From: Gavia stellata
Taxonomy: Eukaryota; Chordata; Aves; Gaviiformes; Gaviidae
Length of the DNA stretch: 64,000 bases
Direction: 5' to 3'
Assembly (NCBI RefSeq): GCF_030936135.1
Contig: NC_082595.1
Coordinates: 111,554,334-111,618,333, forward strand
In this document: positions 8,485 through 64,000 of the stretch, one piece after another
Position numbering within the stretch: position 1 is the stretch's first letter
How the letters are laid out: each line of letters starts with the position of its first letter
Notes under the pieces: generated by a model
Told to the model about the DNA's origin: nothing
Databases searched by the model: none
What the model saw: only the letters and a program-made list of their open reading frames with translations
Translations under genes and position numbers: made by a program

Positions 8485-12511
<4,027 letters not shown>

Positions 12512-14690
12512 CCCTCGCTTTGGCCTAGCGAACAGCAATTCAGAGGAAAATGTTTGAACTCATGGCAATCAGTCGTCACCTGCAGTAAAACCCTGGAAGA
12601 GAAGGGGATAAAAAGCGTAAAACTCTCCCAAACTACGCGGCTTACCAACGATCAACTGCAAATACTTCCAACCGGTATCAATTTTAACAGTATATGCATT
12701 GGTATATGATGTAGCTGCACGAGGACCGACAGCTAAGATGAGGTTTTAAAAGAAAGCCTATATCCATGGTAACTTTGAGACATTATCAAGTACAATCCTG
12801 ACTGCACAGTGGGATACAACCACCTGGGAAGTGACATTGATTTGTCCACAGCTGACAAAGTTTAGTGAGAAAGAAAAAGAACTATATAGACACGTTTCCT
12901 AAGCAGGGCAGGAAAGGGAAGACAAGACCTCCTGGGTAACAGCTGAGCTTACTGTGACCAGAATTGACTTTTAAAGAAATATAGTTAGCCAGAAGTGGCA
13001 GTTTAGCACTAAATCTTTCACCCTCACTTTCCCCCCTCGTAAACCTACTTATCCATCAATGGCTACATCATGTCCCTGCACTTCCACTACCAATGTTCTA
13101 CCAGTACATGCCCTGATACTCACCCCCTTTCTCCAGCTCACCCTCTTCCAACCCCTTCACAAGCCTTCACTTCCCCTCCACTTCAAGCTCCCTGTCCCAC
13201 TCTCAGGCACCCCACCCCAGGTCGTTCTTCACTGCATTGTCTAGTACAGGTTCCCGCTGCAATTCTCATGGTCCCTCATTCAGTTGTCCCCCCAGCCCTA
13301 TCCCCCGATAACCCTTCTCCCTTTTCAGTCTCTTATTTCACTTCTCCCTGTGCCAGTGCTCTTCAACACCATCCCAAGTTTTGCTCCCTAATAACACATC
13401 AATCATTCTCTGCTTTCATGCCCCACACATTCATTTCCCAATCCCCTTCCCCCTTCAAACCTGCCCCCTACTCCCTACCCCACCTGCTGCTGCCTTCAAA
13501 GCCCCCACTTCCCCCCAAATTATCCTCCCTTCCCAAACCCTCAGTCCAGCTCCTCCAACCTAATCCCCCTCTTCCCAGCCCACTCCAGCTTCCTTCTCAA
13601 CCCCCTCCCTCTCCACCCCCTGAGCTGTGCTCCTTTCCCAAATCTTTCATCTTTTCACCCAGCCCCGCCAACCCTCTCCCACTCTACTCCCCACTCTCCA
13701 GCCCTCAGCACCCCCCTCCTCTCCAAAGCAGCCCCCACCAGCCTAAAACCAGACCTCCCCCCAAACCCACTCCCACCAGAGCCCAGCCCTGCCCCATGGC
13801 ATAAGCACACCCGCTCCCCGGCTCCAGGCCCGCCCCCTTCTCCACCCCCCCAGCCCCTTCCCCACCTCAGCCCCTTTCCCCACCCCACTCCCCCACCTCA
13901 GCCCCTTTCCCCACCCCACTCCCCCACCTCAGCCCCTTTCCCCACCCCACTCCCCCACCTCAGCCCCTTTCCCCACCCCACTCCCCCACCTCAGCCCCTT
14001 TCCCCACCCCACTCCCCCACCTCAGCCCCTTTCCCCACCCCACTCCCCCCCAGCCCCTGCCGCCTTCCCCGCCTCCACCAGCCCCTCAGGCCCAGCTCTT
14101 CCCAGCATCTCACCCACGCTCCCTTCCCCTCCCAAGCTCCTGCCCCCTTCCCCGCCTCCTCCAGCCCCTCAGGCCCAGCTCTTCCCCACTTCTTGCCTAA
14201 GACCCCTTCCCCGCCTCGGGCCCCCTGCCCTCCTCCCCAGCCCCTGGCCCCTTCCCCGCCATCCCCTCAGGCCCACCTCTTCCCAGCATCCTAAGACCCC
14301 TCGGCCACCTCAGGCCCCTGCCCCACCTCAGCCCCTTCCCCCTCACCCCCAGCCCCAGCTCCTGCCTCACCTCAGCCCCTTCCCCACCCCCTGCCCCCTT
14401 CCACCATCTCCTCAGGCCCAGCTCTTCCCCGCTTCTTGCCTAAGACCCCTTCCCTTCCCCACCTCAGACCCTTGCCCACCTCCCCACCTCAGACCCCTTC
14501 CCCACCCCCCCAGTTCCTTCTCCCCCTCAGCCCCTTCCCCCGCCCCCAGCCCCTTCCCCGCCTCCACCATCCCCTCAGGCCCAGCTCTTCCCAGCAGCCG
14601 GCCTAAGACCCCTGCCCCACCACCCCCTTCCCCGCCAGCCCCTCAGGCTCGTTCCCGCTTCCAGTCACCTCAGCCCCTTCCCCGGCCCGC
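12512..14690. other. Probable kinase 5' intron: C/T-rich low-complexity DNA
   Basis: From about 13,020 to 14,690 the plus strand is almost pure C with T and A (G-rich on the kinase's sense strand). Long open frames here, such as 13070-13804, encode only Pro/Ser/Leu/His strings and show no codon structure or domain, so I treat them as composition artefacts. It is likely the intron between a 5' UTR exon in the CpG island and the first coding exon. Confidence 0.5.
13860..14047. repeat. 31-bp tandem repeat, about six near-identical copies
   Basis: A unit starting CACCTCAGCCCCTTTCCCCA and closing CCCCACTCCCC repeats head to tail with essentially no divergence between copies. The surrounding kilobase contains decayed variants of the same words. 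The minus strand has regularly spaced G runs, so it is potentially quadruplex-forming. Confidence 0.95.
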
Positions 14691-30600: not shown

Positions 30601-31971
30601 AGGACAAGAAGGTCATCAGGAGCAGCCAGCATGGATTTATGAAGGGGAAATTGTGCTTGACCAACCTGATAGGTTTCTGCAGTGAGACAACCAGCTTGTC
30701 CTGACTTTCATCAGGCTTTGACATTGTCTCCCATGACATCCTCGTAGACAAGCTGCTGAAGCACAGGACAGATAAATGGGCAGTGAGGTGGACTGAAACC
30801 CGGAGGACCTTGACATCTTCATTAATGACCAGGATGATGTGGCAGAGGCACCCTCAGCAATTAGCAGGTGATGCAGGAGTGGAGGGTAGACCGCAGGGTC
30901 GTGCTGCCATCCAGAGGAACCTTGCCAGGCTGGAGACATGGGCTGGTAGGAACCCCATGAAGTACAAGAGCAAAGTCCTGCCCCTGGGGACGAACAACCC
31001 CAGGCACCAGGACATGCCATGGGCACGCAGCAGAGGCCCCTTCCCACCTCCGCCGTCCCGTGACTCGGTGATTTTTTGGGCTCATGCCTGGCTGAAGGAC
31101 CCAGCAGTGCGGAGCATGGGGTGGTGGGATGGGAGCAATGGGGAAGTGTGGAGTATGTCCAGCGCGGAGCAGAGCCTGGCTAGGGAGGGTCGGGAGAGGG
31201 ATGTTGAGCAGCTGCCATGGCTCCCCAGCATCTCCACCACCACCACCACCACCTCTGGGATCCCAGGAACGGGTTTTGGGAGGGGACACCTCACCGAATG
31301 AGGCCAGGCAAGGGCTGATGAGCTACTGGCACCTTTCCATGGGTGTCTTCCAACGCGTTGCATCGCTGGACGAGTTGGAAGTGGGGGGATGCCCAAGCAC
31401 CTGGCATTTGGGGTACACTGCCTGGCACTGCCCGGTGTCCCTCAGTCCCAGGGGGACCAACACCCACCTGATGCCCATCCCTGTGTCTCCCACGCAGGTC
31501 TGCATCCTGGAGTGCGAAGGCGAAGCCGTGCCGCGGGCCACCTGGGAGATGTGTGCCGCCGCCAGCCGAGCTGCCCCACGGCCCCGTGACCTCCAGGACG
31601 CCGGCGATCCCTGGCACGTGGCGGCGGTGCCGGCGGTGCCGGTGAGCCCGCTGCAGGTAAGCGAGCTGCTGCGGCGACGGGAAGCCGAAGACGAAGGCGT
31701 CGAACCGGCGCCGGGCGCCTTCCCGCAGCCACCTGAGGACATTTCCCGACGACTCGGCGGTTTCCCGCGGGGGACGCGTGGCTCGTGGCCGGCGCCAACG
31801 GCCAGGGGGGTGCAGAAGCGATACGGGGGCTTCATCGGGGTCCGCAAGTCAGCGAGGAAGTGGAACAACCAGAAGAGGTTTAGCGAGTTCCTGAAGCAGT
31901 ACCTGGGCATGTCGCCCCGCTCCAGTGAGTACGACATTGCCGGCGGCATCAGCGAGCACAACGAGATCTAA
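27508..31971 (+). CDS. PNOC: PNOC, prepronociceptin (opioid-family neuropeptide precursor), 197 residues
   Basis: Coding exons are 27508-27627 (40 codons, donor CTC|GTAAGT) and 31498-31971 (acceptor CCCACGCAG, ends TAA). The precursor has a signal peptide (about 1-19, [19 protein letters not shown]), six cysteines at 21, 25, 28, 42, 46 and 59 in the opioid-precursor pattern, and an acidic spacer. The peptide [17 protein letters not shown] (149-165) is flanked by Lys-Arg at 147-148 and 166-167, so prohormone convertases can release it. A 30-residue tail starting [13 protein letters not shown] follows. Nociceptin acts on the NOP receptor (OPRL1) after secretion by the regulated pathway. Tyr1, where mammals have Phe1, is usual for non-mammals. 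An extra LGGF after Arg-Arg (126-129) lies upstream. Intron 2 is 3.87 kb and contains a rearranged CR1. Confidence 0.97.
30250..31020. mobile_element. CR1 LINE, 5'-truncated, with its 5' part inverted (PNOC intron 2)
   Basis: From about 30,250 to 30,515 the minus strand is the 3' end of an avian CR1: C-terminal ORF2 ([27 protein letters not shown]) and the 3' UTR ending in ATTCC/ATGATTCC-type words. From about 30,517 to 31,020 the plus strand carries an upstream part of the same ORF2 ([67 protein letters not shown]), in opposite orientation and with an internal deletion. Frames are broken, so it is inactive. Confidence 0.85.
31498..31971 (+). CDS. PNOC: PNOC coding exon 2 (spacer, nociceptin and C-terminal peptide)
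   Basis: This single open exon of 157 codons holds Cys42, Cys46 and Cys59, the processing sites and nociceptin. The last codons read [14 protein letters not shown] donor-like CCA|GTGAGT at 31922-31930 lies in the codons for Pro-Arg-Ser-Ser-Glu, close to where mammalian precursors change to a different C-terminal sequence, so alternative splicing to another last exon is possible here. Confidence 0.95.
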   Translation, partial: VCILECEGEAVPRATWEMCAAASRAAPRPRDLQDAGDPWHVAAVPAVPVSPLQVSELLRRREAEDEGVEPAPGAFPQPPEDISRRLGGFPRGTRGSWPAPTARGVQKRYGGFIGVRKSARKWNNQKRFSEFLKQYLGMSPRSSEYDIAGGISEHNEI

Positions 31972-39365: not shown

Positions 39366-39477
39366 TCAGTCCAGGAAGCGCTGGCAGGCTTTTTTCCACC
39401 GGCAGGCCGTGCACCACTGGTCCCGGTGCTCGATGCCGTACACCTTACGGCACTTTTTGGCTTCACCACGGACTTTC
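39366..39477 (-). CDS. ZNF395: ZNF395 last coding exon (C-clamp)
   Basis: After acceptor TTTTGTAG the exon completes an Arg codon and reads [19 protein letters not shown], then [17 protein letters not shown] and TGA. The four Cys/His-type ligands and basic residues form the C-clamp DNA-binding motif shared with SLC2A4RG, ZNF704 and some TCF isoforms. It is essentially identical to the human C-terminus as I remember it. Confidence 0.95.
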
Positions 39478-42400
39478 CTACAAAAGGGGGAAAAGAAGAA
39501 ATAACATTCATTCACTCGCTGCAGAATCTCGGTCGCGTTTCTAAGGGTAAGGCCCTGTAACCATGGCCGAGCATCGTTCTGCTGCATCTCAGCGGAGATG
39601 CTAGAGGGCACCCATTTTCTGACGGGCTCCACCCCTGCTCCCCTCCGGCCGGCGGGACCCTCACCTGGTGCCGATGGACACCCTGGGCGGCGAGGCGACG
39701 ATCAAGTGGGACTTGAGCATCGGCGTCGGTGGCTGGGTTCGCTGAAGCTGAGCGACCGGCTCCGCACCTGCGGGGAATCGGGTGTCAAAGGGGACGCGGG
39801 ACGATGCAGTCCTCCTCCCGTGCGGCCCCCGGGCACCGCGATGGGGTGACGTGGGTGCTCCCAGCCCACAAATCCGGATGTTTAAAGTGGGGAGCGAGAA
39901 AGCAGAGACAAGGTGCCCTTAGCTCCCAGCCCAACCCTGCACCCCAAAAGGATGAAGGGGAAGACATGCAGGACTCACCGGTGATAGGGACGGGAGAGTT
40001 GAAGTGGCAGTGGCCCAGCTGATGCTGGTGAAGATGTGGGGGACACTGGAATTTGGATCGAGGGCAACGCCTGTGGGGGAAAAGAGGGGTCAGCGCTAGC
40101 CCCGAGGATCCCTGTTCCCCCATGCCACCCCACAGGCATTCACCTCCCTGCAAAGACCAGCCTGGAATACCCACAAACTGGGAGCACTGGGAGTGGGATG
40201 GAAATCCCCGTGCAAGCTCTCCTCCAGCGCCGGATCCTGCTAACATGGGGCATGGCACATGTACTGTGTCACCCTTCACTGGGCCACAGCAACGTCTTCA
40301 CTCCTGCAACTGTTTTCGGTTGCAATACCGAACCACATGCACTGCCCTGGTCTGTATGTATATATTTTTGCACCTATTTACATAGGCTTTCTGCTTTCAG
40401 ATGATGTGGCATCCGTTCCCTGGGATGGGAAAAGATATACTTATGCATCTATGTAGCCTGTCCCTGCTCTAGCTTGCAGCTCCAGAACAGCGCTCAGCTC
40501 TCAGGTAGCCCCTGGGACAAGGGCCACTGGCCCAGGGTGCCCACAGGGCCACTGCTCCGGGTCCCCAGGTTTCCTTGTGCCTCAAAAGCCCGTGCCCCGG
40601 TGAGCATGCAGCGGAGACGTGCAGGATCCGGCACGGCTGCATTCCAGCTCCATGTTATCTGCCGGCAGAAGGGCGTGTTGCATACCAGCACCGGGTAATT
40701 GCAGGGGAGCGGAGCCCAGCAGCTCCCCCAGCCCGCAACGGCTGTGGCAGAAGCACAGGAGCCCCTTAACCAGGCGTTAACGAAGCCAGTCGCTCAAGGG
40801 CTGAAGGGCAACCAGGCAGGGGATGGTGCTACACATTGCTGGGGTGGTAATGAAACGTCCCTGCCGCAGCAGGGACTTGCAGAGCAAACCAGATCATGAC
40901 CTGCCCTTTGGCAAGATTTCGGGAGGTGACGCAGCCCTGGGAGATGCCGCCAGCTCACCTGGTAGGCGTGATCAGCCTGGATGTGCCAGAAGGAGCTGGG
41001 GGCAGACTGGCTCAGGGCGCTGCTGGCCAGGGTGGGCTCCAGCACCGGCTGCTCCACCAGCAGTGCCTCCGGCTTCGCCAGGGCTGGCTGGATGATGATG
41101 GGGGCGGATGCGGACGTGGGGCTGGTGGCGGCGGCTGCCTCCGGCGCCGGCTCTTCCTTCACCTGCACTTCGGTGTAGTAGAAATCCTCCTCCCGCTTCC
41201 GCTGGTCAGAGTCTGCACTGTCCCTGCCGGGGATGAAAGGGGGACAGTGGTGAAAAGGTGGCCACGTTCCCATCAAGGTGAGCAGTCCCTGACTTCGCCG
41301 GGGGAGAGCCATCTCACCCTCTCGGGCAGAGCAGCTCCGCTCCCAGGCTCCAAAGCATCACGTCAGCTGCGATCAGCAACAGCCACTGCCTCTGCAGCAG
41401 CACTTCATGCTTCCAAGAAAGATCAATGTCTCTTCCAGGGCCTTTAAAAATGCTGGCACATTGACCGGGTGCCACTGAAAATCCCCTGCTCATTTCTAAT
41501 CGAGTTCATTTAGCACAGCCATGACCAAAGCCCTGCGGTTCACCCAGCAGGAAACAGCCTCTAAAGTCTTTTTTGTTCTTTTCCCAGTGCATTTATCCAG
41601 CACTGGATGGCAGTCCAGCGCTGCCCACTGCACTGCAGCCCTTCTGTCACGTTTGCAAGGGAGGAGGAGAAAAATACATACCGGAAAACGTGGACTAAAG
41701 CATGAGAAAACTGAGGTTGGGGCGAGAAGTGCAATAGGGCCATAGGAGGAGAGCATAGCAAAGCTGATCCCCACACCCAGACCCTCACCACTTCGTATTT
41801 TGGGGGGAATTCACAGGAGATCAGGACAAAGCAAAGCAAACTACCAAAGGGACAACCGCCGCCAGGCTGGCACACAGGTGCCCATACCAGCCCCAACAGC
41901 TGAGCTGGAGCCAGCCGCTGTCGCAGCAGGCATGTCTTCCAGGCTGGCAGCCCTTGTGAAATCCAACCGGGCTGGTGCTTTTCTGCCTCTGCCCAGGAGC
42001 CCAGGGCTCACGTGTAACCTGAACTCCCCCCAGTGCAAAATGCACACAGGAGCTGGGCAGTCCCAAAGCCCAAACGGGTCTCCTGTGCCTCCCAGAACGC
42101 CCTGGGCTCCCTGAAGGCGGGGACACATACAACAGTGGCTTTGGTGACATGGACTGCTTGGCTGCAGGAATTACGAATTATGCAGCGGCAGGGCATGCGG
42201 CTTCAGTGTGGTCGTGCAGGGATTGAGGAGGTGAAACCTTCGCCTTACCCGAGGTGCTGGGTCTTGACGTGCCGCTTGATGCCGACGATGGAGCGCAGGA
42301 CCTTGCCGCAGCTCGGCCACAGGCACTTGTACATCACCTTCACCGAGTTCTGGCAGAGAGACAGTCCGTGTTACCCCCTGCCTGGCAGCCGCGTCCCTTC

Positions 42401-45058
42401 CATGGGACGCCAGCTCAGCTTGAGCCACCCCACCAGCACTGGGACCGCCCCCCCGACGGCAGCAGTACCTTTCTCTTGCGCGGAGCAGGTTCATCAAGGA
42501 GAAAGGGGTCGGAGTCAGTCTCGAAGCCATCGTCCATCTGGGGGGAGCTCAGGGCCTCGCTGGAGTACTTGGGGCTGCCTGCGGGGTGGGGGGGCGAAGG
42601 GGTGGAGATGTCGCTGCCCCCACTCCAGTGCCCACTGGTGGTGCTGCTGCCGCTGTCCGAGACGTCACCGCTCTCCTTCCAGGGATCGCACGCTGCCCGT
42701 GAGGCTGCAGGGAGGGGACACGTGCTGCCACCCTCAGCTCAGGGCCAACCAAATCCCCCCAGGGCAGAGACCAGCCCTGAGGCTGGATAACCCACAACAA
42801 CAGTTTGCCTCTATTTACTTATTTTTTAAAAAAACTTGGCAAGGTGAAGCCTTTGCACCTTTGCTCAGCACCAGCTTCCAATTATTGGTCGTTTATCCCT
42901 TTTTTTTCCCCTCCCCATCCTCCTTGGCATCAGCGCAATCCCACGGGCACAGCCGGCACACGGCGAGCTGCCAGCACCAGGGCACGCACATTTCCCACGG
43001 CTCCAGGCAGCTATTTTTATCCCTCTGGCTGCATTTGACTCCTCGGGAATGAAACTGCCTCTAAAAAAGGAGCAACCGGGCGGTGCTCCCCAGCCCGGGA
43101 CTCCTGAGCGGGGCTCCCTGGCCCCCCGGGACTCCTGTGGAGAGCAGGGCTACCCCCACCACGCTGCCAGGGGTGTCCCCGCTTGCTCAGACCCAACCGG
43201 CACCAGCACCCGTGGGCTCCACCGCGACCCCAGTGCCGCTCCCCAGCCACCTCCAGCCCAGCATGGTCCCTGTCCTGGCAGCTATTCAGCACCCAGCAAA
43301 CACCTCTGCAGGGCAAGAGCCCTGGCACTGAGAACCAAAGGGCACAGCGTATTTCTCCACATCTCCTTTTGTTTCAGATGTCGTTTTTTTAACAAATATA
43401 TATGAATATTTTAAATGCACACTCACGGGGGATGCCGCTCTCGCCAGCGGGAGGGCTCTGCACCACGGGGCTGCAGGAGAGGCTCGTCAGCACCATGGCT
43501 GCCACCATCTCGTCCATCTCCACAGCCGTGTCAGCCTTCCTGCACCGCGAGGGGAGAGATGTGAAACACGGGGAGGAAAAGGCAGAGAAAGAGCCTGTGT
43601 ACAACCCAGGGAGTCACCGTGTACCCAAAGGGCAGTACAACCTGCAGCAGCGCAGGTTCCCCCCCACCGCCTCCCTCCATAAACTCTGAGTCATTTTAAA
43701 GTCATTGGGAAAGATGTTTTATTCCCATTTGGAGGAAAAAAAAAAATTAAAAATCCCCTTGATCCTAAATTTAACCATCCTCCAGATAATCCCACGCTGG
43801 GAAGGCGGATGTATCCCCGGCATCACCGCTCTCTCCGTCGGTGTGAAAACAAGCACGAGTGCTGCCAGAGCCGCCAAGAGACCCTCTCCCGCCCGAGTGA
43901 GATACCACCAGCCAAAGGCACGAACCTCTTGGGTACATCGATATTGCTGGATACAGATCTCTGCAGCGCCTCGGCAGGGCCGGGACCGCCGGCCACGGGC
44001 AAGGCGGGGGGCTGGAGCGCGGCCGGCCGCACATCCTGCGCCTTCCAGCAAGCCTGCAAGCCCTGCTCTGGCAGCAGCACCTTCACCTTGTCGCTCAGCG
44101 GGTTGTGCTGCTCCACGAGGCCAGCGCACTCCTGCCCGTTGTAGGTGACAAGGACCTGAAAACAGCACGAGGGGCGATTTGTCAGTGCCACCTGCCAGCC
44201 CGCGGCTCCCGGGGGATGTCCTGCCGCAGCACAAGCAAGCCTTCACCCGCCGCAGGATCTCCCCTCCTCCTCCCGCAGCGGATGGGGCCACAGAGGGCTT
44301 CAGGACAAAGGCAGAGCCTGTCCTGAAGGGCTTGGACTTCAGACTGCTGTCACAGCAAACCAAAGAGGTGGCCAGGGTTCATCCCAACCCCACCAGAGAT
44401 CTGCTCTTCCTGGGCACAAGCTCCCCAACTCCAGCAATCCCAAGTTGAGGGACTTCCTGAGCCGGTATCAGCTGCCCCTTGAGCGTCATGACTTTGGGTG
44501 GACTTTTCTCCAATGAATTTGTGTCTGCTTTGGCTTTGTTCTCACGCCATCCTGCTGCAAGGACTCCCACAATTATTACACAGCCTGGCAAAGTACGTAG
44601 CTAAAAGGATTAAAAGACGGAGGAGGATGAGGGAACGGAGGTTTCCTGGGTGAAGTGATCCTCAATTCACACCTTGGCTCTGCCAGTCCCAGCTCTTTTG
44701 GGCAGGGGAAGACGTGCAAACCTCACCTCCTCCTTCACAGAGTCCCAACCTCCTTCTGATGGGCAGTCTTCCACCACTACCACCCGTGAGCCTACTTCTG
44801 TTCCTGATAAAGTAGCCGAAGAGACACANNNNNNNNNNNNNNNNNNNNNNNNNNNNNNNNNNNNNNNNNNNNNNNNNNNNNNNNNNNNNNNNNNNNNNNN
44901 NNNNNNNNNNNNNNNNNNNNNNNNNNNNNNNNNNNNNNNNNNNNNNNNNNNNNNNNNNNNNNNNNNNNNNNNNNNNNNNNNNNNNNNNNNNNNNNNNNNN
45001 NNNNNNNNNNNNNNNNNNNNNNNNNNNNTGGAAGCAGCTTGCTCCGCGGAGACATGCT
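39366..45058 (-). CDS. ZNF395: ZNF395 (HDBP2/PBF), C2H2 zinc-finger and C-clamp transcription factor; 5' coding exon interrupted by a gap, two 1-base frame breaks as printed
   Basis: Firm minus-strand coding exons are 44155-43926, 43539-43427, 42704-42469, 42349-42249, 41223-40959, 40070-39979, 39767-39665 and 39477-39366. All use GT/AG. Together they encode about 417 residues colinear with human ZNF395 (513). Features in order: [17 protein letters not shown] (HDBP-family N-domain), [20 protein letters not shown] (export-like region), PRKRK basic signal, one C2H2 finger ([14 protein letters not shown]...HVKTQH), [24 protein letters not shown], and a C-terminal C-clamp with [19 protein letters not shown]. 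The family binds GC-rich DNA (Huntington and GLUT4 gene promoter elements) and shuttles between nucleus and cytoplasm. The first coding exon (about 45058-44727) is interrupted by 200 N. Exons 40070-39979 and 39767-39665 each appear one base short in a C run. PNOC adjacency matches human 8p21. Confidence 0.95.
39665..39767 (-). CDS. ZNF395: ZNF395 coding exon with an apparent 1-base deletion
   Basis: The exon begins [11 protein letters not shown] in frame, as in human ZNF395. After a three-C run (plus-strand GGG at 39735-39737) the family sequence ([13 protein letters not shown]) continues in the next frame. The exon is 103 bases where 104 would preserve both phases. It is most likely a sequencing or consensus error in a homopolymer. 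Confidence 0.9.
39979..40070 (-). CDS. ZNF395: ZNF395 coding exon with an apparent 1-base deletion
   Basis: The exon begins [11 protein letters not shown] in frame and then slips: [11 protein letters not shown] and SLSP appear in the next frame after a five-C run (plus-strand GGGGG at 40038-40042). The exon is 92 bases, whereas 93 is expected from phase 0 at both ends. As printed the mRNA would lose the C-clamp. Confidence 0.9.
40959..41223 (-). CDS. ZNF395: ZNF395 coding exon (FYYTEVQ and Ala/Pro-rich segment)
   Basis: It completes a Gly codon after the zinc-finger exon and runs through [16 protein letters not shown], an Ala/Pro/Ser-rich spacer and [13 protein letters not shown], ending at CCAG|GTGAGC in phase 0. 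The conserved blocks at each end match human ZNF395; the spacer is divergent, as expected. Confidence 0.94.
42249..42349 (-). CDS. ZNF395: ZNF395 coding exon (C2H2 zinc finger)
   Basis: It encodes [20 protein letters not shown] followed by [14 protein letters not shown], a single classical C2H2 finger (Cys-x4-Cys, His-x4-His). The flanking exon carries the basic PRKRK. The exon ends in phase 2 at CGG|GTAAGG. Confidence 0.95.
42469..42704 (-). CDS. ZNF395: ZNF395 coding exon (Ser-rich segment to basic signal)
   Basis: It reads [20 protein letters not shown], then [20 protein letters not shown], and later [20 protein letters not shown]. Ser/Thr-Pro sites are abundant, consistent with the known phosphorylation-controlled (14-3-3) localisation of the family. 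It begins in phase 1 and ends in phase 0. Confidence 0.94.
43427..43539 (-). CDS. ZNF395: ZNF395 coding exon ([20 protein letters not shown])
   Basis: It begins after GGTGCAG, completes an Arg codon and reads [20 protein letters not shown], then [17 protein letters not shown]. The hydrophobic Met/Val/Leu spacing is that of the nuclear-export segment of the family. The donor is CCCCC|GTGAGT. Confidence 0.94.
43926..44155 (-). CDS. ZNF395: ZNF395 coding exon (HDBP N-terminal domain)
   Basis: It starts after GTTTTCAG with [20 protein letters not shown] and ends [11 protein letters not shown] at a GTTCGT donor. It aligns with the human segment starting VYVWYGGQECTGLVEQH. The middle is divergent and Ala/Pro-rich. 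Confidence 0.93.
44727..45058 (-). CDS. ZNF395: Probable ZNF395 first coding exon, mostly hidden by the gap
   Basis: Upstream of the gap, an acceptor-like CCCCGTGTTTCAG is followed by CAGC and an ATG at 45054 (MSPRSKLLP...). Downstream of the gap the minus strand stays open and reads ...[19 protein letters not shown] to a strong donor, GAG|GTGAGG. Human ZNF395 has about 75 residues before the next exon, which fits one exon spanning the gap. Similarity is too weak to be certain. Confidence 0.45.
44829..45028. other. Assembly gap (200 N)
   Basis: Exactly 200 N are present, probably a placeholder rather than a measured length. It interrupts the expected first coding exon of ZNF395, in a GC-rich area just 3' (in transcription terms) of the promoter island. 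Confidence 0.99.
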
Positions 45059-56054: not shown

Positions 56055-56500
56055 TGGATAGGAAGGCCGGTGAGCATATAGGAGGGCAGGTGAGCATATA
56101 GGAAGGCAGGTGAGTGTATAGGAAGGTGGATGGGCATATAGGAAGGCAGATGAGTGTGTAGGAAGGCAGATGGGCATATAGGAAAGCAGGTGAGCATATA
56201 GGAAGCCAGGTGAGTGTATACGAAGACAGGTGAGCATATAGGAAGGCATGTGAGTGTATAGAAAGGCAGATGAGCACGTAGAAAGGCAGCTGAGCATATA
56301 GGAAGGCAGGTGAATGTATAGGAAGGTGGATGAGTAGGAAGGCAGGTGAGCATATAGGAAGTCAGGTGAGTGTATAGAAAGGCAGATGAGCATATAGAAA
56401 GGCGGTTGAGCATATGGGAAGGCAGGTGAGTGTGTAGGAAGGTGTGAGTGTATAGGAAGGGAGGTGAGCATATGGGAAGGCAGGTAAGCATATAGAACCC
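56055..56500. repeat. 20-bp minisatellite, about 22 copies
   Basis: The unit AGGTGAGCATATAGGAAGGC repeats with two main variants, GAGCATATAGG and GAGTGTATAGG, often alternating, which suggests a 40-bp higher-order unit. The minus strand is open in more than one frame across it (Tyr/Leu/Pro/Cys strings) because the unit lacks stop words; it is not coding. Confidence 0.95.
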
Positions 56501-58177
56501 ACCAGCCTTGACCACACTGGGGGTCGGTCATCTGTAACCCCGAGTGGCAGCACCTCCTCCCATCAATGACAACTGGTGCTTACAGGGAGCAGTGGGTCTG
56601 TGGGGGGGGACGAGACCCAGGCGAGCAGAAACTTCTAACTCTCCATGGCTCTGAGCCACCCAAACCTCGCCTCACCAAACGCGGCTGCGCCGGCACAGCC
56701 GTGCCGGGCCTGGCGTGCCGGGGCTGTGCCGAGATGACTCATCCCACTGCTTGCAGCAGCACACTTCCAACTAGCAACAAGTGAAAATAGAAACGTCCCC
56801 AGCTCCTGAGCCAGGAATAACGTCGCAGGCTATTTTTTTGGGTGTTTTTTTTCCCTTTAAAGTGAAATCCCTTTTTTTTAATTCTCTCTGACTCAGCCCC
56901 AATAAAGCCACCACGTAGCAGCAGAATCTCCTCCCCAGCTTCTCCGCTGTGGCCCGCGGCACGTCGGCTACCAGCGTCAGTGCCGATGGGGGCGGATGCA
57001 GGAGGGGAGAAGCAAAGCCCATTGAGGTGGGTTTGGGGGGACGATGCCACATCCCGGTGGGACATGGCTCAGTGTTTTGCCAGGATGCAGAGCTCAGGAG
57101 CAAAAAGGGGAGCAGGAGGAGTGCTTGGGGTTGTAGCCCAGGCTGCTTTGGAGGTTTATATGATAAGAGAAGGAGGGAGGAGAGGATGGATGACTGCTGG
57201 GATGGAGAGCTGGGAGATGGCAGCAGCCAGACCCTCCTGCCTCAGTGGCGGGACAGGGACGATGGGTCTCCTCAGCTCTGCCCACTTTGGGATGAGCATC
57301 CACTGGTGGCTGCCATCAAATGGCAAAGGAGAGGTGATGGAAAGTGGGGAAGAGAGGGAGATGGGGCCATGCCGGTCCCCATGGAGCTGCCTGGGGCTGG
57401 TGGGTGGTTGCAGCCATAGCGGAGGTACGGGGACATCCCGGGAGCAGTCACAACAGCATTATCTCAGTCACCCCACGTAACCGCTGCTCCTGTTACACGC
57501 TGCCCTCCAGGCCTCCCCGGGGCCCTGCCAGCCTTTTGGAGGGGAGATAAGCTGAGTCCCACCGCTCTATCAGGCCATGCCACACCTAGGATCCAGCAAA
57601 ACGAGGCCGCTGTGCCCACCCCTGCCCGAGCACCAGCTGCAGGACTCTCATCCCGCTGGCAGAGCCCATCCAAACTGCCCCGGGGATGAAGCAGGGTGTA
57701 GCACACCCATTAAAAATTATTAAAATAGCAATTAAGGACTATTTACACAGCTTCCCATCCATAAACTCCCAGTCCTGGGAAGCAAGACCACGCTACAGGT
57801 GATTTTTCCCAGGGGATCCAATCTGGATGACGTGTGGAAGTCATTTTTTTTGGAGCTTCTCCAAAAAATAATCACGCATTTTTCTTCTGCCATTTTTCTT
57901 TGGCCAACCCCACGTGGGGGTCACCCCAGTGCCCACGGGCCCGCCCAGTGACGGGGATGTCCCAGAGGGACACTCAGGGACCCTTGTGCTGGATGTCGGG
58001 GGATAACCTGGACCACCTACTCTTCATTTTAGAGTTGGGAAGGGAGCAGGCAGTTCTCCAGGGCCGCTGCCTGTGCCTGTGCCTGCCCGCGCTCCTGCCC
58101 GCAGCCGGGAAAACCCTCCATCAAACTTGCATGAACCGGCTGGGCTTGAGTCAGCTCCAAAACATCTCCGGGGCACC

Positions 58178-58701
58178 TTACGCCACATCGAAGCGCTTTT
58201 CCGGCAGCAATGGAGGTGCTTCTTCTTGGGGTTCAGGGGGGCTGGCGGCCTGCCGGGGCTGCGGCGCCCGGGATGGCTTGCACACCTGGGCGTATACAGG
58301 ACCGGGGCTCCCCTCGCTGCCTGGCTCTTCCTGGGCGATGACCTCCTTCACCAGGATGCTGGGCTCATTCCCGGAGGACAGGGATGGAGAGTCCCCTGGG
58401 GCACTGCCGGCATGCCAAGGCTTTTTCAGTGTCCTGGATTTGTACCGGATGCTTTCGTAGATGGTTCCCTCGGCATCCGGCACAGGGTCCGCCGTGGGTG
58501 TGCCAGCACCCCCAGGCAAAACCGGCAGCTGCCGGTGCCGCAGAAACTCGGGGGTCCTCAGGTCTGGTCCGGAGAGTGCGTGGGAATGAGGTGTCCAGCC
58601 TGGCACGTGCAGCCCGGGGTGCCCCACAGCAGGGTTATCCGGGTCCCCCGGCACCACGGGGCCATCTGCCTGCTGCCGGGGCTCACCGGGAGACGGGGTG
58701 C
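58178..58701 (-). CDS. Adaptor coding exon 4 (tyrosine-motif tail and stop)
   Basis: After CCCCGCAG the exon encodes residues 74-247. The Pro/Gly-rich first half is followed by DAEGTIYESIRYKSRTLKK, a spacer with SILVKEVIAQEE, GPVYAQVCKPSRAP, EEAPPLLPEKRFDVA and TAA. The three tyrosines are the only ones in the protein. Confidence 0.8.
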
Positions 58702-61700
58702 CTGCGGGGAGGGAGAAGGGGGGATGCTGAGCTGGAGAGGGTACCCCTAGCACCATCACACTGCGGGGCATCCCTGGCTAATGCAAGGGTAAGGTAGCAC
58801 CGAGTAAATGGGATTAAATGGGTCCCGCTCCCGCTTCTGTCCCCGCTCTCCGCTTTTAGCAAGAAAAATAATAAAAAGCAAAGAATAACCAGGGCGAGCA
58901 TCCTTAGGTTGCCGGCGGGGGGGCGTGCTCCCCGCCGTGGGGCCAGCGTGGTGTCGGGACCTGCCACCCGCCTTCCCACGCAGCGGCTCATGCCTTCGGT
59001 CAAATATTTATTTAAGAAGGAGGCTCTGCTCTGTGTGCAGAATCTGTCAACACGGGGAGCTGGCAGGGCAGGACACCCAGCCGGTTTGTTCGCTCCAAAG
59101 GCGACAGGCTCTGGAAAAGCCATGTAACCGGGTGTTTCTCCTTCTGCTTTAAATATGCAGGGATGTGGTGGTCCCGTGGGATTGGGGGTGCAGGACCCTG
59201 GGTGCTCCCCCCCAGCTGCAGTGCGGGGTGCGTGCCTGTGGAACGGAGGTGGAGGCACGGGCCGCTGGCTGGTGCGGGAGGTGGCAGGGTCGGATGAAGG
59301 CCAGAGCCCCCCGGGGCCAGCACAGCCTTACCACCCTCCAGCTCCGTCCTGGCAGAAAGCATCCCTGCCCCGTGAGCACCCCAATGTGAGCACCCCAACA
59401 TCAGCATCCCAGCGTGAGCACCCCAATGTGAGCACCCCCAATGTGAGTATCTCCAATATGAGCACCCCAACATGAGCACCCCAACATGAACACTGTTAGG
59501 ACCTCAACATGAGGATCCCAGCATGAGCGTCCCAATGTGAGCACCCCAGCGTGAGAATCCCAATGGGAGCACCCCCAATGTGAGCACCCCAGCATGAGCA
59601 ACCCAACGTGAGCACTCTGTTAGCATCCCGGTGTGAGCATCCCAGTGTGAGCACCTCCAATGTGGGCACCCCCAATGTAAGCACCCCAACATGGGCACCC
59701 CAACACGAACACTCTGTTAGCACCCCAACATGAGCAGCCCAACGTGAGCATCCCAGTCTGAGCACCCCAATCTGAGCACCCCAACATGAGCACCCCAGCA
59801 TGAGCATGCCAAAGCAAACATCCCGACCTCAGCACCCCAGTGTGAGCACCCCAACACAGGCATCTCAGTGTGAGCACCCCAGCCTAAGCACCCCAATGTG
59901 AGCACCCACTGTGAACACCCCATGAGCCCCCTCCATGTGAGCACCTTAGCAAAAGCACCGCGGTGCACCCCGGTATCCCGCCTGCTGCACCCCAAGGGGC
60001 TGAGTCTTTGCATTCGGGGTGTCCCTTCCCCGTCCCGCTGCAGTAAAGCAGGAGAGGGCGAGGGGTGCCTTGCTGTGGGGCGGGAAATGCAGCCGGGGGA
60101 GCCCTAGGAATGGGGTACGGGGGGCAGGCTGGTGGGGCCACCCCATAAAGTACTCAGGAGCTCCCCATTGCAGTGCAAGGAGGAGCAGGAGTTTTGCTTG
60201 AGCGTCTCGAAGCTTAGCCCCAGCGTGGCGAAAAGGGGAAATTAATACACGGGGTTTAATCAACCTTGTTATCCAGCGCTGCCGAATAAAGCGTTCCTGG
60301 TGTAAACGGGAAGAGAATCTTCTTCCCGGCTACATGGAAAAGCAAACGGGCTGAATGCGTAATCCGGTGGGAAGGTTTGGAGCATTAAACCATCTTTTTA
60401 AAGCTTTCCCCAGGCAATTCCCCTTCCACCAGCGCAGAGCAGGCCAGGGGGTGTTTTAAAACAGCTGACACGGTCCTGCTGAAGGAACTGGGACTCACAG
60501 TGGGTTTTACTGGGATATTTTGCTGTAACTGGGAATTTTAGGAGCTGCGTTCGGATGCAGCTGCCAGCCTGTGCAGCGTCTTGTGAGCCCCTTCACCACG
60601 GCCATGGGGCATCCCCATCCTCTTCTCCGTGCCAGGGAACTGAAAGTAGCTGCTTGCTGCTAACGAGCTTCACTAATTTCCCCCATTTTGGCTGCCACAG
60701 CCCTGGCTGGGGGGTGCAGGGGTGCAGCCCCGCACCTCTGGCCAAGGGCCGGCTCAAAGTCCCGCCGAGCTCCTCCAAGTTCATGGGCCAGGCAAATCAT
60801 TAACCGGGCCGGGTCGGCGTCAGGAGGCTGAGCGCCAGGGACCTTCGGACCGCGGCACCCCGCTCCGTGACACCGGTATGGCCCTTCCCCGAGCCATGAC
60901 CAGCATCCCAGTGTGGGGCAGTCCCCATCCTGCTGCACCCCGAACCTGCAGTGGGAGCCGGGGAGGGCCCACGGGCCAACCGGCACCTGGCACCCAGCAC
61001 CCGCGTCCCCGGGTGTGCGAGGGCCCCGGGAGCAGCCGCAGCAGTGGGGCTGGAGATGGCAGAGGGGCACAGCCACCGTCCCCGTCCTGTGACCTACCTC
61101 CCAGCAGTGCGGCTCCCCCGTCGCTGTCGCCCAGCCTTGTCAGCTTCACCTGCAGCCAAAACAAGCGGACACTCACGTATCAACCCCCTGGCACTCCTGC
61201 ATCCGCCCCTGGTACATGTGCATCCCGCCCGGGCACTCCGGCATCCTCCCTGGAAGTTGTGCATCCCCCCTGGATGCTCGTGCACCCCCTGCCCCAGCAC
61301 TCATGCATCCCCCCTGGGCACTTGTGCAGCCCCCCCTGTGCAGTCCTGCATCCCCCTGCCACTTGTGTAGCCCCCCCGGCACTTGTGCATTCTCCCTGGC
61401 ACTTGTGCGTACCCCCTGGACTCATGCATCCCCCCCCCAGCACTCGTGCATCCCCACCACCACTTGTGCAGCCCCCCCAGCACTTGTGAATTCACCTAGC
61501 ACTTGTGCAGCCCCCCTTCAGCACTTGTGCAGCCCCCCCCCAGCACACATCTATACCCCCCAGCACTTGTGCAGCCCCCCCAGCACTCATCTATCCCCCC
61601 CCAGCACTCGTGTATCCCCCCAGCACTTGTGCAGCCCCCCCAGCACTCGTGCATCCCCCCCAGCACTTCTGCAGCCCCCCCAGCACTTGTGCAGCCCCCC

Positions 61701-62847
61701 CAGCACTCACGCACCCCCCTGGCACTTGTGCATCGTCCCCCCAGGACCTGTGCACCCCCCGGGCACTCGAGCACCCCCCAGCCCTTGCGCCGGCACTAGG
61801 GGTGTCGGGGGGCTCAGGGGGGCCCAGGATTTGGGGGGGGGGGGGTCAGCATGGCAACACGGTGGGGGGGCGGCTGCCCTCTGCCGGCACCGACCGGCAC
61901 CAACCAGTTCCAGCTGGCCCCCACCGGCCCCGACTGGCCCCAGCTGGCCCCACAGCTCGGGGGGGGGCACCCACATCCCCTCTGCTCAACCCCTGCCAAC
62001 CCCGGGCTGGGGCACCCATGGGGTCACACCATGGCCGGGGCCACCCGCTGTCCCCGTCCCCCTGTCCCCAGCCCAATTCCCCCCCCCCCCGGCCCTGACG
62101 CTTTTTTGGGGTTGGTTTGGCCATTTGGGGTGAATTTGGGGTGAGGGGAGGGATGGGATGGTCGCCGTGCTGACGCTGGAGGGCTGTCAAAGCACGCGGG
62201 ACACGGGGGGGACAGGGGACGTGGGGGGGGCAGGCCACTGTCCCCTCAGCCCCCCCTCCCGCCACCTCGCCCCCCAGCCGGGGCGAGCAGCCATTAAATG
62301 CCACCCACGGGCGCGGTGGGGACCCCGGGGGACTCACCCCTCGGATGAGCCCGGGGTTTTCTTTCATTTCCCGGGTGGAAAACCGCCGGTTCGCCCTGCG
62401 GAAGCAGAAGGGTCAGCGGAGCCGCGGCCCATCCCCAGGGACGCTCGGGTCAGGGTGGGCTCAGAGGTGACGCGGCCCCCACCGTCCCCTCCTCTCCGTC
62501 TATTCACCCCCCACCGTGTCCCCTTCCCCAGCGCTCGTCCCCTCCCCGCTTGACCCCGCGCAGGTTGCTTGCACCCAGAGCATCCTCCGGCACGGAGCTC
62601 CCTGCTCCCCATCCCACACCGGCATGGATGGTGATCCCCCGCCATCCATGGATTTCCCCGACGCCCACGATATCCATGGCAAACCCTTGGGAAGAAGCCA
62701 ACCCCCCCCTCTTTGTCTCCCCCCCAAGCAAACGTACCTGTTGAAGAAGGAGCAGAGCAGGAGCAGCAGGAGGAGGCCGGTGGTGGCCAAGCCCCAGGCC
62801 ACCGCGGCAGCCAGGGCCACCGAGCCCTCGGCCAGCGCCGGAGCCAT
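58178..62847 (-). CDS. PAG1/LIME1-family transmembrane adaptor (CSK-binding type), 247 residues
   Basis: Minus-strand coding exons are 62847-62738, 62395-62338, 61149-61098 and 58701-58178. All junctions are GT/AG with matching phases (2, 0, 1), giving 247 residues. A very short N-terminus (about 10 residues, MAPALAEGSV) precedes one membrane helix (about 11-32, Ala/Leu-rich), then a basic stop-transfer segment, FNRANRRFSTR, and a disordered Pro-rich cytoplasmic tail. Tyrosine motifs are IYESI (Tyr155), RYKSR (Tyr160) and VYAQVCKP (Tyr210), followed by the proline-rich EEAPPLLPEK and C-terminal FDVA. PAG1 (Cbp) has SYKSR followed by YSSVNKP, its CSK SH2 site, and a YESI near its end; LIME1 has YSRVCKP and YESIR. 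The shared signatures place this in that family, which recruits CSK to Src kinases at membrane rafts. Only one juxtamembrane Cys (Cys32) is present, so raft palmitoylation may be weak. A LAT- or SIT-type adaptor is the alternative. Confidence 0.75.
59380..59945. repeat. 14-bp minisatellite, about 40 copies (adaptor intron 3)
   Basis: The unit GAGCACCCCAATGT repeats with substitutions (CCAACAT, CCCAGCGT, CATCCCAG) and occasional interruptions by ACTCTGTTAG words. The lack of stops on the minus strand produces Gly/Cys/His/Trp-rich false frames. Confidence 0.95.
61098..61149 (-). CDS. Adaptor coding exon 3 (short linker)
   Basis: After TGGCTGCAG the exon reads VKLTRLGDSDGGAALLG and ends in phase 1 at GAG|GTAGGT. 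It is the least certain exon on content, but both splice sites are strong and its phases join exons 2 and 4 exactly. Confidence 0.62.
61185..61780. repeat. About 20-bp C-run minisatellite, about 28 copies (adaptor intron 2)
   Basis: Units resembling CAGCACTTGTGCAGCCCCCC vary mainly in the C-run length and in TTGTGCAG versus TCGTGCAT. Each unit carries a run of 5-8 C, so the adaptor's sense strand has dozens of regularly spaced G runs, strongly quadruplex-prone. It begins about 35 bases from coding exon 3. Confidence 0.95.
62338..62395 (-). CDS. Adaptor coding exon 2 (basic juxtamembrane segment)
   Basis: After TTCCGCAG the exon completes an Arg codon and reads ANRRFSTREMKENPGLIRG, ending in phase 0 at a GTGAGT donor. 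It is positively charged as expected for the cytoplasmic side of a type III/single-pass protein. Confidence 0.72.
62738..62847 (-). CDS. Adaptor coding exon 1 (extracellular stub and membrane helix)
   Basis: The ATG at 62847 gives MAPALAEGSV, then a helix ending GLLLLLLLCSFFNR. The open frame extends upstream to 62970 with Pro-rich sequence and other Met codons, but a short extracellular stub is the rule in PAG/LIME proteins, so I chose this start. The donor is CAACAG|GTACGT. Confidence 0.75.
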
Positions 62848-64000
62848 CGAGCCCCCAGCGGGCAGGCGGAGCGGGGTAGAGACGAGCCCCAGGTCAGGCT
62901 GGCAGAGGGGGACTGGGGTAATAACGGGGTGCATGGGGCTGGTTAGGGGGTGCTGGAGGGGGGCTCCCATTCTCCCTTTAATATCAGGAGCAATTGTTCC
63001 AGGGATCCCTCCCTATCCCTTCATCCCGCCAGGATGCCCAGCGTCATCCCACCCCGCTCTCCCTTCCCAGGGGGCAGAGGATTTCGGGGCGATTGCGGGT
63101 GCAGGAAAGCTCCGTGTGTCGATCAAGCGCACGGCGCTGGCACCCACGGCCCCGCTCGCCGGCGGGCTCTGGGCAGTGGTGCCCCATCCCCATCCCGGCT
63201 TCTTGGAGCGGTGGCCGCTCTCCCCTCTCCGGCGAGGGGCAGTGGGGTGGCAAAACCAGCTGGGGCATGGGAGGTGATGCTGGGACATGGGGGGGTGATG
63301 CCACTGCACGGGGCATCCCCGCCGGGGTGCCCCCCAACCCGCACTGAGCACGGGGAGGCCACCCTCCCTTGAGAAAACCCTTTGCCATCCTCCACCCAAA
63401 AACCCCTGGCTCCTTCTCCCACCCAAGCCCCCCCTGCCTAAAACTTGGGGTGAGCTGAGGTCCCCTGGCAAGCCTGGTTTACCAGAGGAGAGCCTGGCAA
63501 ACCGAAACGCCGAACAGGCTGAGCCCGCTCTGCCAGCTGTGACTCAACCTTCCCGGCACGGCATCCCGGCCCCTGGAGCCACACCGGGGTTTGGGGACCC
63601 CCCCCGGCTCCAGCAGCTCCATGGTGGGGACCCCCCAGGCTGGGTGTGAAGACAGGCTACAGCCTGGCAGTGCTTTTGTCTCTAGAACAAAATTAATTCG
63701 GGATTTATTCCTAATGGATGCTCCAGCCATCTTCCTCTAGCTGATCTGCCAGCCCTGGGGCACACGCTGGGTTCGGGCACCGGTGACGTCCCGCACCGCT
63801 GAGCCCTCCAAGCCGCCGTGTCCTGTGCCAGCCCGCCCTGCCTCAGTTTCCCCGGCTGTGCCCTGAGACGAGCGAGACCGGTCTCAGCTTGAGGTGCCCG
63901 CCCATGCCCCACATCGCTTGGCACCCCAACCCGGGGTGGGGACGGGGCTGGGGGCACCCCATGGCCAGGGACCCCCCAGTTCCCACCCCCGAGGAAGCCA
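62848..64000. other. Upstream of the adaptor start: no gene recognised
   Basis: GC-rich sequence with overlapping open frames and no recognisable domain. A 5' UTR exon and promoter of the adaptor gene would be expected here or beyond the window edge. No TATA box or dense CpG island stands out. Confidence 0.4.

Follow-up and report, generated by a model that had tools for sequence, protein, structure and literature searches.

A four-exon gene beside ZNF395 in Gavia stellata, probably a third genome-duplication copy of the PAG1/LIME1 adaptor line

The stretch of the Gavia stellata genome analyzed here (contig NC_082595.1, 64,000 nucleotides, hereafter the window) carries on its minus strand, next to ZNF395, a four-exon gene for a short single-pass membrane protein. 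The cytoplasmic tail of this protein holds tyrosine motifs known from PAG1 and LIME1, and an initial annotation of the same letters had proposed it as a third PAG/LIME-family adaptor that recruits the kinase Csk. In our view, this protein-coding gene for a transmembrane adaptor is probably an ohnolog of PAG1 and LIME1, the third copy of their line to come from genome duplication; we hold this view because of its position and its motif set taken together, and not because of alignment. Papers are cited below by their PMC identifiers.

The gene model

Rebuilt from the DNA, the four exons join into 744 nt (247 amino acids plus stop) and reproduce the model of the initial annotation exactly. Its introns have phases 2, 0, and 1, all are of the GT-AG type, and the frame is kept throughout, without a stop or a frameshift. 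The exons are:

62738..62847, minus strand: exon 1 (110 nt), with the start codon, short ectodomain, transmembrane helix, and juxtamembrane CSFF; donor at percentile 99.52
62338..62395, minus strand: exon 2 (58 nt), with the basic juxtamembrane stretch RANRRFSTREMKENPGLIRG; acceptor at percentile 99.59, donor at 99.49
61098..61149, minus strand: exon 3 (52 nt), encoding VKLTRLGDSDGGAALLG; acceptor at percentile 98.18, donor at 99.36
58178..58701, minus strand: exon 4 (524 nt, stop included), encoding the bulk of the cytoplasmic tail; acceptor at percentile 99.82

Splice sites were scored with a simple weight matrix of assumed base frequencies. The donors (CAG/GTACGT, GGG/GTGAGT, and GAG/GTAGGT) are ranked among the 3109 GT sites of the minus strand and the three acceptors among its 4338 AG sites—i.e. 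all six splice sites lie in the top 2%. GC content at codon positions 1, 2, and 3 of the 247-residue frame is 0.71, 0.56, and 0.75, which fits GC-rich coding DNA. Third-position GC was considered as evidence for the strand and dropped, because the in-register antisense frame of exon 4 mirrors the same figures. Likewise, the length of the open reading frame is no proof of a gene, because the opposite strand carries another 247-residue open frame (58007-58750).

The ends of the gene are less regular than its splice sites. Neither AATAAA nor ATTAAA occurs on the minus strand in the first 1.18 kb past the stop (57000-58178), and the nearest ATTAAA is at 56882; the transcript would therefore have a long 3' untranslated region or use another signal. 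At the other end, the assigned start (62847) stands in a poor context. A better context (A at -3, G at +4) surrounds an in-frame ATG at 62970, from which the ectodomain would be 41 residues longer. However, likely acceptor-like sites lie at 62898 and 62912, and they point to an assigned start within a second exon instead.

A non-functional locus, in which splice sites and open frames have arisen by chance in GC-rich DNA or a pseudogene has formed recently, would agree with the distant polyadenylation signal, with the many long chance open frames of the window, and with the minisatellites in introns 2 and 3. Such a locus would also have to account for three donors and three acceptors that are all in the top 2% of their class and keep an undisrupted frame, for the hydrophobic helix in exon 1, and for motif patterns that the rest of the window lacks (see below). 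We regard this explanation as very improbable, and the adaptor locus is with high probability a real gene.

Minisatellites occupy much of the adaptor introns, at 59372-59945 in intron 3 (units of 14, 42, and 97 bp) and at 61184-61787 in intron 2 (units of 20 and 61 bp), and a third one, with a 20-bp unit, lies at 56058-56495. An Rfam scan of the 64-kb window gave no matches.

Protein layout and docking motifs

The product has one hydrophobic helix, at residues 14-32 (DNA 62808-62752; best 19-residue Kyte-Doolittle mean 2.17), and all segments of this length that start past residue 40 have means of 0.25 or less. The 20 residues after the helix contain five K/R vs two D/E. The tail is rich in proline and glycine. 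Tyrosine occurs only at positions 155, 160, and 210 of the protein, and cysteine only at positions 32 and 214. The initial annotation had described a single-pass protein with a short ectodomain, and this is what we find. Transmembrane adaptors of the TRAP class are described as having a short extracellular part, one transmembrane helix, and a long cytoplasmic tail with several tyrosine motifs (PMC2803307); assuming a start at 62847, the product has these features as well. The juxtamembrane region and tail carry the following elements:

62754-62752, minus strand: codon of Cys32, the single cysteine of the juxtamembrane CSFF (residues 32-35, exon 1)
58514..58534, minus strand: RQLPVLP (residues 130-136), by pattern an SH3 ligand of the class I type; PAG1 counterpart RELPRIP (residues 131-137 of the sequence used here)
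58448..58459, minus strand: YESI (Tyr155), by pattern a candidate Src-family SH2 docking site of the pY-E-x-I type (pY, phosphotyrosine)
58433..58444, minus strand: YKSR (Tyr160), a word also present in PAG1 (2rsy_B)
58274..58294, minus strand: YAQVCKP (Tyr210), by pattern the proposed Csk SH2 docking site; counterparts YSSVNKP in PAG1 and YSRVCKP in LIME1
58187..58225, minus strand: EEAPPLLPEKRFD (residues 233-245), similar to EEAPPPVPVKLLD of PAG1 (sequence used here)

YESI, YKSR, and Y..V.KP, the tail motifs named by the initial annotation, are each found a single time when the 64 kb are translated in six frames, and the three sit in the adaptor open reading frame within a span of 62 residues. 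R.LP.[LIV]P also has a single occurrence, in this frame: it is RQLPVLP, a motif that the initial annotation had not named. This proline site resembles a class I peptide of the Src SH3 domain, for example RALPPLPRY (PMC4877006), and the N-terminal proline-rich region of PAG1 is a Fyn SH3 site (PMC3167820).

Among 400000 shuffles of the tail, the three functional patterns never occur together. Singly, Y[AST].V.KP arises in 0.02% of shuffles, YESI in 0.04%, YKSR in 0.06%, and RxLPx[LIV]P in 0.4%, rates that overstate significance because the patterns were picked after the sequence had been seen. Looser patterns are commoner, e.g. [EQ]LP..P at 4% and PP..P.K at 5%.

Pfam recognizes the human PAG1 and LIME1 sequences used here for the comparisons at 752 bits (PAG) and 420 bits (LIME1). 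A Csk-bound PAG1 peptide in the PDB (2rsy_B) agrees with residues 291-324 of this PAG1 except for the first, and it contains both SYKSR and YSSVNKP, the PAG1 motifs that the initial annotation had quoted. The LIME1 motifs quoted there were compared with the LIME1 sequence used here only.

PAG1 (PAG/Cbp, human 8q21.13) resembles the window protein in its single pass, in the YKSR and Y-x-x-V-x-KP words (2rsy_B), in an EEAPP proline stretch, in an SH3 site (RxLPxhP) that starts at residue 131 of the sequence used here vs residue 130 in the window protein, and in adjoining a gene of the ZNF395 family (ZNF704). By contrast, PAG1 is longer (432 residues with ten tyrosines vs 247 with three) and has CSSC where the window protein has CSFF. 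LIME1 (human 20q13.33) shares the YxxVCKP and YESIR words and also lies beside a ZNF395-family gene (SLC2A4RG). In the LIME1 sequence used here, an ELP site precedes the next tyrosine by about 22-25 residues, as QLP does in the window protein, and Tyr145 and Tyr200 are 55 residues apart, which is the spacing of Tyr155 and Tyr210. LIME1 differs in having CTAC (Cys28 and Cys31) instead of CSFF, five tyrosines instead of three, and a C-terminal YESI. Neither the Pfam PAG nor the Pfam LIME1 model matches the window protein. By the definition of their class (PMC2803307), LAT, NTAL, LAX, SIT, and TRIM are similar in having a short ectodomain, one helix, and a tyrosine-bearing tail; LAX, SIT, and TRIM likewise have no palmitoylation motif. 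LAT aligns with the tail of the window protein no better than expected by chance (1681 of 2000 shuffles do as well), and NTAL, LAX, SIT, and TRIM are set apart only by the lack of a Pfam match.

Position and kinship

ZNF395 adjoins the adaptor gene downstream on the same strand, and PNOC lies farther along:

39369..44158, minus strand: ZNF395 coding exons found by tblastn (44158-43925, 43610-43437, 42708-42469, 42352-42248, 41222-40821, and 39479-39369)
39384-39452, minus strand: C-clamp of ZNF395
31096..31971, plus strand: PNOC open frame with the nociceptin part, a marker of the ZNF395 arm (Pfam Opiods_neuropep, E = 1.8e-06)

The ZNF395 pieces are collinear; identity is 81% and 89% in the zinc-finger part and 97% across the last 37 residues. 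Human ZNF395 was the only one of the three paralogs taken as a query, so it is this high identity, together with PNOC, that favors ZNF395 over SLC2A4RG and ZNF704. A neighbor that is SLC2A4RG, which would make the adaptor gene a plain LIME1, was considered and dropped in view of the collinear high-identity ZNF395 pieces and the adjoining PNOC. PNOC and ZNF395 are neighbors in human as well, judging from coordinates in PMC9169259. The nociceptin core of the window's PNOC has a Tyr at a place where the mammalian one is described as FGGF.

In the human pairs PAG1/ZNF704 and LIME1/SLC2A4RG, we take the adaptor to be upstream of the zinc-finger gene and on the same strand, and human 8q21 to correspond to chicken chromosome 2. 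ZNF395, SLC2A4RG, and ZNF704 are C-clamp proteins related to one another, and the fly has a single homolog of the three (PMC5339479, PMC4999783, PMC3896468). ZNF704 is listed with PAG1 at human 8q21.13 (HEY1, MRPS28, TPD52, ZBTB10, ZNF704, PAG1, and FABP5; PMC2966422) and SLC2A4RG with LIME1 at 20q13.3 (RTEL1, TNFRSF6B, ARFRP1, ZGPAT, LIME1, SLC2A4RG, and ZBTB46; PMC4736014). The third paralog, ZNF395, stands with the window gene; the initial annotation made no use of this paralogy. Chicken chromosomes 2, 3, 20, and 23 form a four-fold paralogous region that goes back to genome doublings, with PENK on chromosome 2, PNOC on 3, and the orphanin receptor arm on 20 (PMC2865548). The window gene, with ZNF395 and PNOC as neighbors, falls within this region.

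Position is stronger evidence for kinship than sequence comparison, and PAG1 and LIME1 are themselves too divergent for alignment to show that they are related. If the window gene is indeed the third arm, the pairs ZNF704-PAG1, SLC2A4RG-LIME1, and ZNF395-window gene would date the origin of the family to the genome duplications of vertebrates and open its history to testing. We found no paper that joins the three zinc-finger/adaptor pairs, and no earlier report of such a gene, in the open-access literature, a body of text that does not cover all that is in print. The gene appears to be a previously unnoticed third sister of PAG1 and LIME1, the adaptors through which Csk, a brake kinase, is brought to Src-family kinases at the cell membrane.

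Besides the distant polyadenylation signal and the poor start context, a number of results weigh against a third ohnolog. The initial annotation had proposed profile searches against the PAG1 and LIME1 families as a check, and a Pfam scan of the 247-residue product returned no family at E ≤ 10, neither PAG (PF15347) nor LIME1 (PF15332). BLASTP gives best E values of 0.035 against LIME1 and 0.094 against PAG1, which are not significant. In Smith-Waterman comparisons of the tails (2000 shuffles per pair), the window protein scores 58 with PAG1 and 55 with LIME1, weak values reached by 20 and 78 shuffles, and the control LAT-LIME1 does equally well (56; 52 of 2000), so these scores cannot decide kinship. 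The best PAG1 alignment pairs EEAPPLLPEKRFD with EEAPPPVPVKLLD and leaves the Csk sites unpaired, and YESI lies past the Csk site in PAG1 and ahead of it in the window protein. The CXXC palmitoylation motif shared by PAG, LIME, LAT, and NTAL (PMC2803307), with Cys28 and Cys31 as its cysteines in LIME (PMC7655920), is not retained at the juxtamembrane position, where the window protein has CSFF with one cysteine. Pattern scans with the exon 4 open frame in prokaryotic and viral contig collections gave 234 and 14 matches, none of them confirmed, as is expected in such collections. The assignment of PAG1/ZNF704 to the chicken 2 arm and of LIME1/SLC2A4RG to the chicken 20 arm is our presumption.

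PAG1 and LIME1 fare no better when compared with each other. They find each other at a BLASTP E value of 0.13, which is not significant either, and at a tail score of 47 (172 of 2000 shuffles), and LAT scores 37 with the window tail and 46 with PAG1 (722 of 2000). Alignment significance was dropped as proof of kinship, unrelated LAT having done as well against LIME1. Among 219 pieces from other open reading frames of the window, none reaches the PAG1 score, six reach the LIME1 score, and none reaches the summed score. The best LIME1 alignment matches the proline site, one tyrosine, and the VCKP site, in that order. A PDB sequence search gave four chance matches for the product (E 0.62-0.65) and none for the motif region. 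Sequence comparison alone is no proof of kinship.

These results would also suit a real adaptor gene that does not descend from the PAG/LIME line and whose Src SH3, SH2, and Csk SH2 motifs are convergent; such a protein would still be expected to recruit Csk. Short linear motifs arise easily, and homology here has neither profile nor alignment support, LAT scoring as well against LIME1. However, convergence requires that chance placed the motifs right next to ZNF395, the remaining paralog of the two zinc-finger genes listed as neighbors of PAG1 and LIME1, a coincidence that we estimate (without computing it) at about one in several thousand, among at least some ten thousand genes. As such, we think convergence unlikely.

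A LIME1 (or PAG1) ortholog that has moved, or been misassembled, next to ZNF395 would do away with a third gene. The Csk site is nearer to LIME1 than to PAG1 (VYAQVCKPSR/LYSRVCKPKR in the BLASTP segment), the Tyr155-Tyr210 spacing equals Tyr145-Tyr200 of the LIME1 sequence used here, and a misjoin could lie in the only N run of the window (44829-45028, 200 bases), which separates the adaptor gene from the ZNF395 exons found and directly precedes the latter on their strand. The window ends at 64000, so the flank on the side of the gene away from ZNF395 lies outside it. On the ZNF395 side, the flanks are ZNF395 and PNOC, and not ZGPAT/SLC2A4RG or ZNF704/FABP5, and we consider a displaced ortholog quite improbable, even more so than convergence. 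The initial statement that the gene is neither PAG1 nor LIME1 thus agrees with its position beside ZNF395 in the tblastn results.

With these alternatives weighed, we return to the third ohnolog. We read the window protein as a reduced form of the PAG/LIME line that retains three tyrosines and a single Src-SH3 site and has lost half of the CXXC. We do not place it in the Pfam PAG or LIME1 family, because it has neither the Pfam match nor the CXXC, and predict from the sequence that it works like a Csk-recruiting transmembrane adaptor. For the initial annotation this means that a PAG/LIME-like Csk adaptor is supported by position and motifs and not by Pfam membership. Its claim that all three signatures meet here was overstated: all are present, and their order differs from PAG1, in which YESI and EEAPP lie on the other sides of the Csk site, and CSFF stands in place of CXXC.

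A putative Src-kinase/Csk switch

If the gene is expressed, the single helix and the basic residues behind it would set the protein in the plasma membrane with its N-terminus outside. A Src-family kinase may dock on RQLPVLP through its SH3 domain and would then phosphorylate Tyr155 (YESI). The kinase's own SH2 domain would bind phospho-Tyr155, and the docked kinase would phosphorylate Tyr210 (YAQVCKP). Phospho-Tyr210 could recruit and activate Csk, and Csk would then switch that same Src-family kinase off by phosphorylating its C-terminal tail. The result would be a brake that limits itself and is built from the fewest parts, namely one SH3 site and three tyrosines. In PAG, phospho-Tyr317 (human) recruits Csk and in this way inhibits Src-family kinases in rafts (PMC3167820), and Csk binding to PAG also activates Csk (PMC10016382). 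By pattern, the window protein carries the sites that such a mechanism calls for: an SH3 site, a Src SH2 site of the pYESI type, and a Csk-type site.

The hold on lipid rafts would be weaker than that of PAG1, because the second cysteine of the CXXC is a Phe. This suggests a Csk adaptor that either resides less firmly in rafts or depends on just one palmitate, and whose predicted role is to keep a Src-family kinase and Csk together while being less raft-bound than PAG1. A PAG that lacks the palmitoylation motif still gets to the membrane and recruits Csk, but it has lost its inhibition of proximal T-cell receptor signaling (PMC7655920). The window protein, if correctly interpreted, would be a natural Csk adaptor without the full raft anchor and would speak to the need for raft location. 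It would also be an example of a signaling gene that profile-based annotation misses.

A wider scenario can be put forward only tentatively, and we rate it somewhat below an even chance. A third copy from the two rounds of genome duplication (2R) may have been kept beside ZNF395 in what is apparently the avian lineage and lost at the human locus, and it may serve as a minimal switch between Src kinase and Csk (one SH3, one Src-SH2, and one Csk site), largely independent of rafts, that acts on a pool of Src-family kinases beyond the reach of PAG1 and LIME1. If true, this minimal switch could partly explain the mild effects of the loss of PAG and LIME in mammals, compared with birds.

In the excerpted human gene table of PMC9169259, which by its text covers 65 protein-coding genes, only ZNF395 and FBXO16 lie between PNOC and FZD3, and no such adaptor gene is listed at the ZNF395 locus. 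Gene loss in the PNOC region has a precedent in STK35L3, a kinase unrelated to the adaptor that is reported to be present in chicken and across the range from fish to opossum and to have been lost in placental mammals (PMC2737284). The window contains a kinase gene in at least two pieces near PNOC (10673-12559, minus strand; Pfam Pkinase, E = 6.8e-26 and 6.1e-13) that, judging only by its position, is probably STK35L3.

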